Assembly (NCBI RefSeq): GCF_039541115.1
Contig: NZ_BAABFP010000005.1
Location: forward strand, 914,447-978,446
DNA length: 64,000 bases
Direction of reading: 5' to 3'
Source: Angustibacter luteus
GTDB taxonomy: Bacteria > Actinomycetota > Actinomycetes > Actinomycetales > Angustibacteraceae
Below the pieces are notes generated by a model. The model did no database searches and was not told the origin of the DNA. It saw nothing but the letters and a program-made list of their open reading frames with translations. Below, piece by piece: positions 11,317 to 23,788 of this stretch (the first letter of the stretch is position 1; each line of letters opens with the position of its first letter). The translations under genes were made by a program, and so were the position numbers.

Positions 11317-11978
11317 GCGCCTCCACGAACGACGAAACGCCCATCGATACCACCCCGGTCACCGAGATCAGCAGCCTCGAGCAGCTGCGCGCCCTGGTCG
11401 GCGAGCCGATGGCACGGGCCGCGGCGAAGGACCGTCCCGCCCTCGAGGACGTGCACCGCCGCTGGCTCGCCGCCGCGCCGATGTGCTTCCTGGCCACCGC
11501 AGCCGCCGACGGCACCTGCGACGTGTCTCCGAAGGGTGACCCGGCCGGCGACCTGGCGCTGGTGCTCGACGAGCGCACGCTGGCGATCGCCGAGCGGCCG
11601 GGCAACCGTCGCGTGGACGGCTACCAGAACGTGCTGAGCAACCCGCACGTCGGTCTGATCTTCGTGATCCCCGGAAGGGACGACACGCTGCGGGTCAACG
11701 GGCGAGCCCGACTGGTGTCGGACGCACCCTGGTTCGACGACATGGTGGTCAAGGGGCACCGGCCGCTGCTGGCCCTGGTCGTGGACGTCGAGCAGGTGTT
11801 CTTCCACTGCGCCAAGGCGTTCCTGCGCTCGCGGCTGTGGGACCCCTCGACGTGGCAGCCCGAGGCAATGGAGTCCCGGGCCAGGATCGCCGCGGAGGTC
11901 GAGCGGTCCGACCAGAGCCTGGCCGAGCTCGAGGAGTACTACGGCCCGTCGTACGCCGAGCGCCTCTACCGCGGCTAG
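11313..11978 (+). CDS. Pyridoxamine 5'-phosphate oxidase-type flavoprotein (MSMEG_1061-like)
   Basis: A 221-residue split-barrel FMN-binding protein. Recognisable stretches are 'MCFLATAAADGTCDVSPKGDP', 'LAIAERPGNRRVDGYQNV', 'IPGRDDTLRVNGRARLV' and 'FFHCAKAFLRS'. These match the actinobacterial PPOX subfamily with an MSMEG_1061-like C terminus. Such proteins bind FMN or F420. The reaction is unknown, and it is not the classic PdxH. It overlaps the TusA gene by four bases but has its own leaderless box. Confidence 0.82.
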   Translation: MSASTNDETPIDTTPVTEISSLEQLRALVGEPMARAAAKDRPALEDVHRRWLAAAPMCFLATAAADGTCDVSPKGDPAGDLALVLDERTLAIAERPGNRRVDGYQNVLSNPHVGLIFVIPGRDDTLRVNGRARLVSDAPWFDDMVVKGHRPLLALVVDVEQVFFHCAKAFLRSRLWDPSTWQPEAMESRARIAAEVERSDQSLAELEEYYGPSYAERLYRG

Positions 11979-11996
11979 CGGGCGGCTGGTCGGCGC

Positions 11997-12674
11997 CTAC
12001 CCGAAGGGCACCGGGAGCGGCAGCTCCAGCGCTGCCTCGAGCCGTCGCAGGTACTCGGCTCGGGAGACCTCCCTCACCCCGAGGGTGGCCAGGTGCTCGG
12101 TGCGCCACTGGACGTCGAGCAGCCGGTCGCCGGAGTCACCCGCCGCACGCAGGAGGTCGACGAGGCCAGCCAGCGCGACCTTCGAGGCGTCCCGCGTGCG
12201 GTGGAACATCGACTCCCCCGCGAACAGCCCCCCGATCGCCAAGCCGTAGAGGCCACCGACGAGCTCGCCGTCCTGCCACGCCTCCACGGAGTGCGCCCAA
12301 CCGAGGTCGTACAGCCGCTGGTAGGCCACCGCGACCGCCGGCGTGATCCAGGCGCCGTCCCGGTGCGGGTCGGCGCAGCCTCGCACGACGTCCGCGAAGG
12401 CCGTGTCCACGCGCAGCTCGAATCGTGGCAGCGCCCGGCGCAGGGACCGGCTCAACCGCAGCTCGTCCAGCACCAGCACGCCGCGCGGGTCCGGCGACCA
12501 CCAGCCCAGCGGCGCCCGACCGCCGGACCCGACGCCCATCGGGAACAGCCCGCGGCGGTACGCCGCCAGGACCGTGCCCGGCTCGAGGTCCGCGCCGACG
12601 CCGACCAGGTCCTCACCGGGCTCGGGATCGACGTCCAGGTCCCAGCTGGACGGCGCTGGCTCGGCCGGGCTCAC
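11997..12674 (-). CDS. aat: Leucyl/phenylalanyl-tRNA-protein transferase
   Basis: Aat adds Leu or Phe to proteins with N-terminal Arg/Lys, marking them for ClpS/ClpAP. The 225 residues contain 'YRRGLFPMG', 'WWSPDPRGV', 'GCADPHRDGAWITPA', 'YDLGWAHSVEAW', 'GGLYGLAIGGLFAGESMF' and 'DVQWRTEHLATLGV', all family signatures. The GTG start at 12674 has GGGGGAG upstream. It lies 26 bases after adoK on the same strand, so co-transcription is likely. Confidence 0.95.
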   Translation of the reverse strand: MSPAEPAPSSWDLDVDPEPGEDLVGVGADLEPGTVLAAYRRGLFPMGVGSGGRAPLGWWSPDPRGVLVLDELRLSRSLRRALPRFELRVDTAFADVVRGCADPHRDGAWITPAVAVAYQRLYDLGWAHSVEAWQDGELVGGLYGLAIGGLFAGESMFHRTRDASKVALAGLVDLLRAAGDSGDRLLDVQWRTEHLATLGVREVSRAEYLRRLEAALELPLPVPFG

Positions 12675-21133: not shown

Positions 21134-21162
21134 AAAGGGTGCACCCGAGCGAGGAGTCGAGC

Positions 21163-21498
21163 ATGAAGCTGGCGTTCGTGTACGCACCCGTGACCGACCT
21201 GGACCAGGGGGCCGCGTTCTACCGCGACACGCTGGGCTGGGCGGAGGCCTGGCGCGACGGCGACGACACGGTCGCCTTCGCCATCCCGGACTCCGACGTC
21301 CAGGTCATGGTGTCGACCACCCCGCAGGAGGCCGGGCCGATGTACCTCGTCGACGACGTGGCCGAGTTCCTGGCAGCGCATGCGGACCTGCCGGTCGTCG
21401 TCGACCCCTTCGCGATCCCCGACGGCCAGGTGGCCGGCGTCGCCGACCCGGCAGGCAACGTGCTGTACGTGTTCGACCAGGCCGGCGGCGAGTCGTGA
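21163..21498 (+). CDS. VOC-fold (glyoxalase/bleomycin-resistance-like) protein
   Basis: A 111-residue single VOC domain: 'VYAPVTDLDQGAAFYRDTLG' at the start, 'DVQVMVSTT' in the middle and 'VAGVADPAGNVLYVFDQ' at the end. Few metal ligands are recognisable. ATG 21163 is chosen for the GAGGAG site nine bases upstream. An ATG at 21139 would add eight unlikely residues. The stop overlaps the next gene (GTGA). Confidence 0.85.
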   Translation: MKLAFVYAPVTDLDQGAAFYRDTLGWAEAWRDGDDTVAFAIPDSDVQVMVSTTPQEAGPMYLVDDVAEFLAAHADLPVVVDPFAIPDGQVAGVADPAGNVLYVFDQAGGES

Positions 21499-22064
21499 CC
21501 GCGCTCCTGGACGTGCTCACCGCCGGGTACGTCGGCGACCGGGTGGCCGGGACGGTCACCCTCGTCCGGGACGGGGCGCTGGTCGCCGTGATCGACCCCG
21601 GCATGGTGGCCGACCGCGACCGGATCCTCGGCCCGCTGACCGACCTCCAGGTCGCACCCGGCGACGTGACCGACGTGGTCTTCAGCCACCACCACCCGGA
21701 CCACACCGTCAACGCGGCGCTCTTCCCGAACGCCCGCATCCACGACTTCCAGGCCACCTACGTGGACGACCAGTGGATCGACCGCGAGTTCGAGGACGAC
21801 GTCGCGCTGCTGTCGCTGTCCGTCCGGCTGATGCTCACCCCCGGCCACACGCCGCAGGACGTCACCACGCTGGTGGACACCGACCGCGGGCTGGTCGCCT
21901 GCACGCACCTGTGGTGGTCGGCCGGCGGCCCGCTGGAGGACCCGTACGCCGAGGACGCCGCCACCCTGCGAGCCTCCCGCCAGCGGGTGCTCGACCTGAA
22001 GCCGACGTTGATCGTCCCGGGGCACGGCGCGCCGTTCGTCCCGCTCCCCTCCACCCCGTTGTGA
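21495..22064 (+). CDS. Metallo-beta-lactamase-fold hydrolase
   Basis: A 189-residue MBL protein with the metal motif 'FSHHHPDHTVNA' (HxHxDH), 'LMLTPGHTPQDVTTLV' (third His) and 'TLIVPGHGAPFVP' (last His). It is small, like MBLAC1-type enzymes. The substrate is unknown. It overlaps the VOC gene and the LanC-like gene by four bases on each side, so the three are almost certainly made together. Confidence 0.88.
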   Translation: MTALLDVLTAGYVGDRVAGTVTLVRDGALVAVIDPGMVADRDRILGPLTDLQVAPGDVTDVVFSHHHPDHTVNAALFPNARIHDFQATYVDDQWIDREFEDDVALLSLSVRLMLTPGHTPQDVTTLVDTDRGLVACTHLWWSAGGPLEDPYAEDAATLRASRQRVLDLKPTLIVPGHGAPFVPLPSTPL

Positions 22065-23302
22065 CGCTGGACGCTCAGCAGACCGCGCAGGAGCTCGCCG
22101 AACGCGGATTGCACTGGCTGGCGCAGCAGCCCGTCGATGACGACCTCAGCCTGTACAGCGGCCTCGCGGGCGTCGTCCTCGCGCTGCTGGAGGGGCACGG
22201 GGACAGCGGTTTCGAGGCGTACGCCGACGCGGCCCTCGAGGGTGCACGGGCCCTGGCCAGCTCCGTGGAGGGCACCGAGAGCAGCTCGCTCTACTTCGGG
22301 AACACCGGGACCGCGTTCTGCCTGCGCGCCGTCCACCAGGTGCTCGGGGACGACGACGCCGGCCGCGCGGCGGACCGCGCCCTGATGCTGGTGCGGGAGC
22401 GGTTCGACGGCGAGCGCTGGAACGAGATGACCGAGCTGCTGGTCGGCAACGCCGGGATCGCGCTCGGTGCCCTGGCCGCCGGCGACGAGGAGCTCGCGCT
22501 GACCGCGGTCACGCCGTACCTGCGGCTCGCCGACCCGACGCCGGGTGGCGTCAACTGGAAGGTGCGGCCGAGCGAGGCCCGCTCGCACCACGTCGCCCAC
22601 GGCACGCTCGGCATCGTGCTGGCCCTGGCCACCGTCGGTGCGGCGACCGGTCGAGCCGACCTGGTCGAGCTCGCACTGGCCGGCGCCGCCGACGTGGTGG
22701 GCCGGGACGAGGCGGGCCCGGACGGTTTCCTCGTTCCGCACTCGGACCCGCCGCACCGACCTGAGCTGATCGAGCGGTACAGCTACGGCTGGTGCAACGG
22801 ACCGGCCGGCGACGCGCAGGTGTTCCGCCGACTCGCAGCAGTCACCGGCGACCCTCGCTGGGACGAGCTCCAGGACCGCTGCTGGAACACCGTGGTGGAG
22901 TCGGGACTACCCGCCCGGCTGCGTCCGGGGTTCTGGGACAACAACGGCCGCTGCTGCGGCACCGCTGGGGTGCTCGCACTGGCCTGCGACCGGTACGCCG
23001 AGGGCCGCGGCACGCTGGGGTTCGCCGGGGTGCTGGTCGACGACCTCGCCACGAGGGCGACGGTGGACGGCGCCGGGGCACGCTGGTCGAACGACGAGCA
23101 CCGCGCGACCCCGAGCCGGCTGCCTCCCCGGAACGGCTGGGCCATGGGCAACGCCGGCATCGTCCGCGAGCTGCTGCGGTTCCACCGGCTCGCCGGCGGC
23201 GGCGACCCCGGATACGCCGTGTGCCTGCCCGACCAACCCGCGCTCGCCGGTACGGATCCCTACCACCCGGAGCCGGGACGCGAGCAGAATGCGGTGAAGT
23301 GA
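22061..23302 (+). CDS. LanC-like cyclase-fold protein with a Cys-Cys zinc motif
   Basis: A 413-residue alpha/alpha-barrel protein of the LanC superfamily. Repeats of the type 'LYSGLAGVVLALL', 'LYFGNTGTAFCL', 'LLVGNAGIALGAL', 'VAHGTLGIVLALA' and 'GWAMGNAGIVREL' mark the barrel. Zinc ligands are C245 in 'YGWCNGPAG' and C298-C299 in 'GRCCGTAG', where most LanC proteins have Cys-His. H180 is the likely catalytic His. No dehydratase or lanthipeptide precursor is nearby. LanC-like proteins outside lanthipeptide clusters have poorly known roles, including thiol addition to dehydroamino acids. GTG 22061 overlaps the MBL stop. Confidence 0.85.
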   Translation: MTLDAQQTAQELAERGLHWLAQQPVDDDLSLYSGLAGVVLALLEGHGDSGFEAYADAALEGARALASSVEGTESSSLYFGNTGTAFCLRAVHQVLGDDDAGRAADRALMLVRERFDGERWNEMTELLVGNAGIALGALAAGDEELALTAVTPYLRLADPTPGGVNWKVRPSEARSHHVAHGTLGIVLALATVGAATGRADLVELALAGAADVVGRDEAGPDGFLVPHSDPPHRPELIERYSYGWCNGPAGDAQVFRRLAAVTGDPRWDELQDRCWNTVVESGLPARLRPGFWDNNGRCCGTAGVLALACDRYAEGRGTLGFAGVLVDDLATRATVDGAGARWSNDEHRATPSRLPPRNGWAMGNAGIVRELLRFHRLAGGGDPGYAVCLPDQPALAGTDPYHPEPGREQNAVK

Positions 23303-23325
23303 CCGGCCCCGGCTAGGGAGCGCGC

Positions 23326-23778
23326 ATGCGACTCGACCCACTCTGCGACGTGACCTGGCAGTACGACCTGCTGCACGAGCTCCAGCCGTCCGAGCGGGGT
23401 GACGGCCGGGTGTACGGCCAGGGGGTCGGCACGTTCACCGGGCGCCTCGCTGGGCAGGCCCGATGGTCCAACTTCCCCCGGCTGCGCGGCGGGTTTGCCT
23501 ACCCGGACGCGCGGGGCGCCATCCAGGTCGAGGGTGGGGCGACGGTGCTGTTCACCCTCACCGGCATGTCGTCGCTCACGAACGGCAGTGGCGTGCACGT
23601 GCTGACGTTCGAGGCCGAGGACGACGACCACCGCTGGCTCAACGACGTGATCGCGGTCGGCGAGGGCAGCATCGACCGCGAGCGGGCGGCCCTGTCCATG
23701 CGCTACTACGTCTGCCTCGTCGACCACCTTCCCGGCATCGCGCCACCCGGACCAGACGGATCCGCCGTGGCCCCGTAG
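23326..23778 (+). CDS. DUF3237 family protein
   Basis: A 150-residue protein with DUF3237 features: '[14 protein letters not shown]'-like strands and the repeated beta-rich pattern around '[17 protein letters not shown]' and '[10 protein letters not shown]'. No catalytic residues are known. ATG 23326 follows TAGGGAG, which could act as a ribosome-binding site or a weak -10. It probably follows the LanC operon with 23 bases between them. Confidence 0.7.
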
Positions 23779-23781
23779 GGT
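23776..23781 (+). promoter_or_regulatory. Leaderless -10 box of the aldo/keto reductase gene
   Basis: TAGGGT, seven bases, then ATG 23789. The TAG of the box is also the stop codon of the DUF3237 gene. Confidence 0.62.
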
Positions 23782-23788
23782 CGGGATC

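Follow-up and report, generated by a model that had tools for sequence, protein, structure and literature searches.

A standalone LanC-like protein with a Cys-Cys-Gly zinc motif in Angustibacter luteus belongs to an actinobacterial clade and is a candidate thiol-addition enzyme

The window analysed here is a stretch of 64,000 nucleotides from the genome of Angustibacter luteus (contig NZ_BAABFP010000005.1, positions 914,447 to 978,446). Within it, a block of genes for a VOC protein, an MBL-fold hydrolase, a LanC-like protein and a DUF3237 protein lies between a methyltransferase gene and an aldo/keto reductase gene. The features that concern us are given below in window numbering.

21134..23788, no strand: block between the methyltransferase and aldo/keto reductase genes, missing from genome G002; G001 has other genes in its place
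21163..21498, + strand: VOC (glyoxalase-like) protein, ~111 aa from the ATG, with a GTG at 21139 also possible as start (PF00903, E = 1.3e-5)
21495..22064, + strand: MBL-fold hydrolase, 189 aa (PF00753, E = 1.2e-17)
22061..23302, + strand: standalone LanC-like protein, 413 aa, with a CCG zinc motif (PF05147, E = 4e-32; LanC fold in the predicted model)
22598..22600, + strand: His180 codon, HG-motif His matching the LanC proton donor (74/75 homologues; role taken from PMC9934072)
22793..22795, + strand: Cys245 codon, predicted first zinc ligand, motif GWCNG (74/75 homologues, 27/27 standalone CCG proteins)
22952..22957, + strand: Cys298-Cys299 codons, predicted second and third zinc ligands, motif RCCGTAG (74/75 homologues, 27/27 standalone CCG proteins)
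23326..23778, + strand: weak match to DUF3237, 150 aa, the final gene in the inserted block (PF11578, E = 7e-7)

A preliminary description of the sequence had placed a LanC-like protein at 22061–23302. The open reading frame is in place, running from a GTG start at 22061 to a stop codon at 23300–23302, and the 413-aa product matches the LANC_like profile with 111.6 bits against a gathering score of 23.2, which assigns it to the superfamily. The nearest NCBIfam models were those for LanL, LanM and LanKC, and the protein scored far under the cut-off of each (88 versus 650 bits for LanL). Searching the PDB with the single sequence gave no match, and a search by profile returned weak LanC-family matches alone. 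An AlphaFold2 model built with 31 sequences has a mean pLDDT of 88.7, with a low-confidence loop (residues 288–291 and 293–297) directly before the CCG motif. When compared with solved structures, this model gave Z scores of 32–38 over 335–369 residues and has the LanC alpha/alpha toroid fold. Its top match was CuvL (Z 37.6, 3.0 A over 344 residues, 23% identity), and Z scores were 35.3 for GCR2, 34.9 for LanCL2, 34.2 for MadC, 33.9 for LanCL1 and 32.4 for NisC.

In order to place the protein among its relatives, species genomes were scanned and LanC domains compared in a tree. The scan found 114 relatives; the 80 top-scoring ones, which were those listed, are 56–72% identical over the best segment and come from Streptomyces, Actinoplanes/Paractinoplanes, Nocardioides, Terrabacter, Intrasporangium and other genera. 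The protein is uncommon, being present in 3 of 99 near relatives (window genome counted) and, phylum-wide, in 7 of 396 genomes. Of the latter, three carry the window's subfamily (the window genome, G419 and G465), two that of a paralogue described below (G247 and G266) and one a distant subfamily (G388), and G218 holds a broken remnant. When 197 genomes of the class were searched, the 30 LANC_like loci listed as top matches all carried CHG. A further 18 lower-scoring loci, picked by hand, comprise nine with CCG that are standalone in the tree, two fused with CCG, five with CHG and two with neither motif. The tree comprises 62 LanC domains. A branch with support of 99/98, found in 100% of 200 bootstrap trees, separates from the rest the 27 CCG proteins tagged standalone (a rough label, like 'fused', set by the length of the open frame upstream of the domain). 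These labels produce some oddities: L184, L185 and L187 carry the tag fused yet cluster with LanC, and L194 is tagged standalone with an open frame of 738 aa. Two of the 20 regions fetched for the tree, L204 and L205, were omitted since their matches were split over frames. The standalone CCG clade splits into three subfamilies and is set apart both from class I LanC proteins and from fused synthetases; the rows nearest to it are fused synthetases, with a weaker join (94/86). One of its subfamilies, comprising L199–L202 and L109, is distant and has the motif QCCG. We conclude that the standalone CCG proteins are one coherent and distinct actinobacterial clade with a scattered distribution. A clade made up of the LanC copies of G000, G001 and G003, all from a single family, is rejected (AU test, P = 0.0008, for a group chosen by taxonomy yet after a tree had been seen), which fits repeated acquisition.

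The cysteines of the protein are at positions 87, 245, 274, 298, 299, 309 and 388, and an HG motif is found at position 180. C245, C298 and C299 had been named as zinc ligands in the preliminary description; the residues and both motifs are as it gave them, the ligand role being predicted. Of the 75 aligned homologues, 74 retain them together with H180, and the remaining one is a fragment that falls short of those columns (nine further fetched loci, missed by the gene caller, are uncounted); conservation to this extent indicates that the motif is not due to chance. Within the standalone CCG clade, all 27 members share the zinc ligands and 23 keep the HG histidine; the four rows lacking it probably belong to the distant QCCG subfamily, and His180 is kept in all rows of the window gene's own subfamily that reach that column. 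By motif, His180 corresponds to His219 of LanCL1. The second histidine of the LanCL type, His277 in LanCL1, which stabilises the enolate, is absent from the window protein and is replaced, again by motif, by Asn246; across the 27 clade members this position is His 14 times, Asn 9 times and Ser 4 times, and the matching residue is reported to vary among bacterial enzymes (PMC9934072). Residues outside the zinc site that are invariant across the clade include W120, W292, W342 and R348. CCG had been taken as the type of certain promiscuous ProcM-like LanM enzymes. C298-C299-G300 is indeed present, but the motif is not confined to those enzymes: profile alignment shows CCG also in the cyclase domain of kinase-fused CuvL (8car), and CCG alone therefore does not make a protein ProcM-like. 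CCC (CCG) cyclases have been described within lanthipeptide synthetases (PMC11251773).

We assessed the genome for the enzymes that would supply a LanC-type cyclase with dehydrated peptide. Neither the LanB dehydratase (PF04738) nor the LanM dehydratase (PF13575, DUF4135) has a match in the whole genome, and the 413-aa protein is not fused to a LanM dehydratase; the built-in controls for both profiles are silent in the window's genome, while PF04738 matches G592 and G712 and PF13575 matches G866. The only PF05147 genes in the genome are the window gene and a second standalone CCG copy, about 40% identical, at L004:10419-11741, which excludes LanKC and LanL as well. The absence of a dehydratase, stated in the preliminary description, thus holds for LanB and LanM genome-wide. 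Among 11 carriers of the standalone clade, one of which (G003) is only 62% complete, LanB was found in two (G592 and G712) and a LanM dehydratase in none. As to the accompanying claim that a precursor is missing, a search directed at Cys-rich frames gave, among the frames listed, no small unassigned ORF with at least four Cys for 16.0–29.5 kb of the window.

Since the GTG start of the LanC-like gene overlaps the MBL stop codon by 4 nt (GTGA) and the MBL gene, also starting with GTG, overlaps the VOC stop likewise, co-translation of the three is probable here. The preliminary description had taken these two neighbours as a sign of a glyoxalase-type system and had proposed conservation of the gene order as a check, with a lack of it in relatives counting as a refutation. 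The order VOC-MBL-LanC was seen in this genome only and is absent from every relative examined, and BLAST searches with the window VOC and MBL proteins against the other LanC loci gave no match. Using NCBIfam models of the glyoxalase system, the VOC protein had no match and the MBL protein scored 24.8 bits with the hydroxyacylglutathione hydrolase model, compared with a cut-off of 200.8. The glyoxalase-type argument consequently falls: the order is not conserved, neither gene is a recurrent neighbour and neither product reaches a glyoxalase-system cut-off. In G001 (same genus) and G003 (same family), the LanC gene is located elsewhere with other neighbours; in G001 it is on another contig, beside NUDIX-hydrolase-like and CTP-synthase-like genes (both judged by eye). 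The flanks of the window's block are conserved in G001 (M20, cation efflux, DUF3043 and methyltransferase genes on one side, aldo/keto reductase and aminopeptidase genes on the other), with other genes in between. In G002, the reductase gene is separated by only 10 nt from what is probably a methyltransferase remnant (a homologue with about 30% identity), and an MBL homologue is found at another location without LanC. The site between methyltransferase and aldo/keto reductase (L127:4527-7532; L128 around 4342) is thus empty in G002, filled with other genes in G001 and occupied by VOC-MBL-LanC-DUF3237 here; it is an insertion-prone spot.

This picture extends to the wider set of loci. Of 75 LanC-like genes (a set that takes in the paralogue, two genes of the paralogue's kind and one fragment), 54 have no same-strand neighbour within 60 nt. 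When 107 of 109 deduplicated neighbours were scanned with Pfam, two short ones being left out, no family was found more than three times and glyoxalase matches were found twice. A conserved operon partner was also sought without success, the largest neighbour families being limited to groups of loci (a 146-aa protein at 21 loci, the phoU locus at 12). VOC-MBL-LanC as a functional operon was accordingly rejected as a general link, for want of any relative with the order and of recurrence of the neighbours; VOC and MBL are lineage-specific neighbours, and the LanC-like orthologue is a roaming single gene. The paralogue at L004:10419-11741 is followed after 24 nt by a gene for a two-domain VOC protein (11766-12599), so that both LanC-like copies of the window's genome are near a VOC gene; the related loci L105 and L106 are without a homologue of the paralogue's VOC.

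One group of Streptomyces loci carries the LanC-like gene near phoU. In G592, G609 and G712, phoR is divergent from genes for PhoU, a 51-aa Cys-rich peptide, a SCO4226 homologue, a 121-aa protein, the LanC-like protein and an AraC protein; in S. coelicolor-type genomes the LanC-like gene takes fifth place among these six. Compared with PDB 4oi3, the SCO4226-type protein is 100% identical over the matched length in G592 and G609 and 99% in G712. Published labels give phoU as SCO4228 (PMC4991794), SCO4226 as an 82-aa nickel protein (PMC4186839) and SCO4223 as an AraC regulator (PMC3897704), which leaves the slot of SCO4224 to the LanC-like gene by position, the synteny being read in close relatives of S. 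coelicolor rather than in the A3(2) genome itself. SCO4224 is thereby an orthologue of the window gene by synteny. Its product is described as uncharacterised, and S. lividans is stated to have shown restricted growth in oxidative stress when the gene was deleted (PMC7581861, citing Darbon 2012); in an AbrB mutant, both SCO4224 and ahpD were down-regulated (PMC7581861). Oxidative-stress resistance has elsewhere been credited to SCO4223 with the same source cited (PMC3897704), and the attribution or polarity of the SCO4224 phenotype therefore needs care; a polar effect on the AraC gene SCO4223 is possible. By extension from the synteny, the phenotype would apply to the window's gene too. Region L143 has the other five genes of the locus and no LanC, indicating that the LanC-like enzyme is dispensable to the phoU locus. 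The 51-aa Cys/Gly-rich peptide (core CGCGSGCGCGCQSG; L077:5110-5265), probably SCO4227 by position, is conserved after phoU in Streptomyces and looks metallothionein-like. As a LanC precursor it was rejected: of the 20 regions L140–L159, 19 have the peptide (the exception being L152) and only 3 have LanC, so the peptide is not a dedicated LanC substrate.

Taken together, a solo gene that travels without a peptide and a probable Streptomyces relative reported as protective in oxidative stress suggest that the protein may be a repair or detoxification enzyme like human LanCL. Our main reading, to which we give a probability of about one half and which draws on analogy with LanCL, is that it would be a standalone, zinc-activated thiol-addition enzyme that quenches electrophiles of oxidative stress. 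For LanCL1, zinc is reported to activate the thiolate of glutathione and a His to protonate the enolate, whereby dehydroalanine and dehydrobutyrine are removed from proteins (PMC9934072). By this analogy, the predicted Cys-Cys-Cys zinc site would bind a thiol and activate the thiolate, which would add to an electrophile (a Michael acceptor, for example a dehydroalanine or dehydrobutyrine residue), and His180 would donate the proton. The thiol partner would probably be a free one, mycothiol or cysteine, and not a cysteine of the same peptide, and electrophiles formed under oxidative stress would be quenched in the way that eukaryotic LanCL does with glutathione. Zinc binding, thiol addition and the identity of thiol and electrophile are points that we infer. 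Mycothiol is a plausible thiol given that the window's genome encodes MshC with a score above cut-off, as one of 9 such genomes among the 11 carriers; G388, of the distant subfamily, has none above cut-off. SigR-type promoters, sought by their consensus, are not enriched upstream of the genes (0 of 74 versus 6 of 700 controls), which weakens a direct link to the thiol-stress regulon. A role in thiol addition or detoxification had been put forward in the preliminary description; it agrees with the invariance of the zinc site, with the lack of LanB and LanM dehydratases and with the SCO4224 phenotype, known at second hand, but the VOC/MBL argument offered for it does not stand. The standalone clade and the link to SCO4224 are stronger evidence than the operon argument, and the detoxification role is plausible.

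We considered whether the protein might instead close rings in trans, on a peptide encoded elsewhere that is dehydrated by an unrecognised enzyme of class V or another kind. The predicted fold and active site would suit this reading, being those of lanthipeptide cyclases; ProcM-type CCG cyclases act on peptides scattered over the genome (PMC11251773), new RiPP classes are suspected among unclassified LanC-like proteins (PMC7268733), and a conserved Cys/Gly-rich peptide does lie near LanC at the phoU-linked loci. However, LanB and LanM are absent from the window's genome, no neighbour is conserved at LanC-like loci and the distribution of the 51-aa peptide is not that of a dedicated substrate, so that we regard a cyclase acting in trans as unlikely. 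A local glyoxalase-like detoxification operon of LanC with VOC and MBL, as initially suggested, would account for the 4-nt overlaps with their probable translational coupling and for the VOC gene downstream of the paralogue. It is nevertheless very improbable, since no VOC or MBL homologue occurs at any other LanC locus, the gene has other surroundings in G001 and G003, the MBL homologue of G002 is without LanC, glyoxalase matches make up just 2 of 107 neighbours and the VOC of the paralogue is without a homologue at the paralogue-type loci L105 and L106.

Alternatively, the zinc-thiolate site may have been kept for another reaction, such as thiol transfer to or hydrolysis of a small metabolite, or for non-catalytic sensing or binding. 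That the proteins form a standalone clade of their own, share invariant residues outside the zinc site (W120, W292, W342 and R348 among them) and lack the catalytic-type His in 4 of 27 rows is consistent with such a change, but the invariance of the zinc ligands and the retention of His180 in the window's subfamily are what LanC chemistry would lead one to expect, and we consider a different activity doubtful.

Compared with known systems, the protein resembles LanCL1 and LanCL2, the eukaryotic glutathione transferases acting on dehydroalanine and dehydrobutyrine, in being a standalone LanC fold (Z about 33–35) with a zinc thiol site and no peptide partner, and like LanCL-type proteins it occurs without a lanthipeptide cluster; it differs from them in having three Cys where they have a Cys/His ligand set, in sharing about 15% identity and in having Asn246 (His or Ser in relatives) in place of LanCL1 His277. 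With the class I LanC proteins NisC and MadC it shares the fold, the separate polypeptide, and the zinc and acid residues, but its genome has no LanB, no precursor is seen nearby, the motif is CCG rather than CHG and the tree branch is separate. ProcM-type LanM enzymes and CuvL, the latter being the closest solved structure, have the CCG motif as well; theirs is fused to a dehydratase or kinase part, whereas the window protein is standalone.

Numerous bacterial LanC-like proteins lack a lanthipeptide partner. A RefSeq survey counted 3052 unclassified proteins among 12,705 LanC-like ones, 1392 of them unexplained (PMC7268733). The window protein resembles that set in being a LANC_like protein without lanthipeptide neighbours, and the passages of the survey on such proteins neither describe the clade nor give it a function (PMC7268733); a literature search covering titles and the beginnings of abstracts, mostly from journals free of subscription, found no account of the clade or of a detoxification role for a bacterial LanC. 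The standalone clade is now set apart and tied by synteny to a model-organism gene with a reported oxidative-stress phenotype, and this tie makes electrophile repair of the LanCL type by a bacterial enzyme directly testable in S. coelicolor or S. lividans. A wider proposal, which we advance tentatively and hold to be possible rather than probable, is that Actinobacteria would own a LanCL, the horizontally spread standalone CCG clade conjugating mycothiol or cysteine to dehydroamino acids from oxidative damage and to related electrophiles. If true, protein-repair chemistry so far described for eukaryotes would exist in Actinobacteria, with SCO4224 as a genetic handle.

Decay of the gene can also be observed. 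At L110:8453-8677 lies a LanC-like remnant with a match of ~80 residues, and it adjoins a gene for a 146-aa protein, perhaps the same as that of intact Streptomyces loci.
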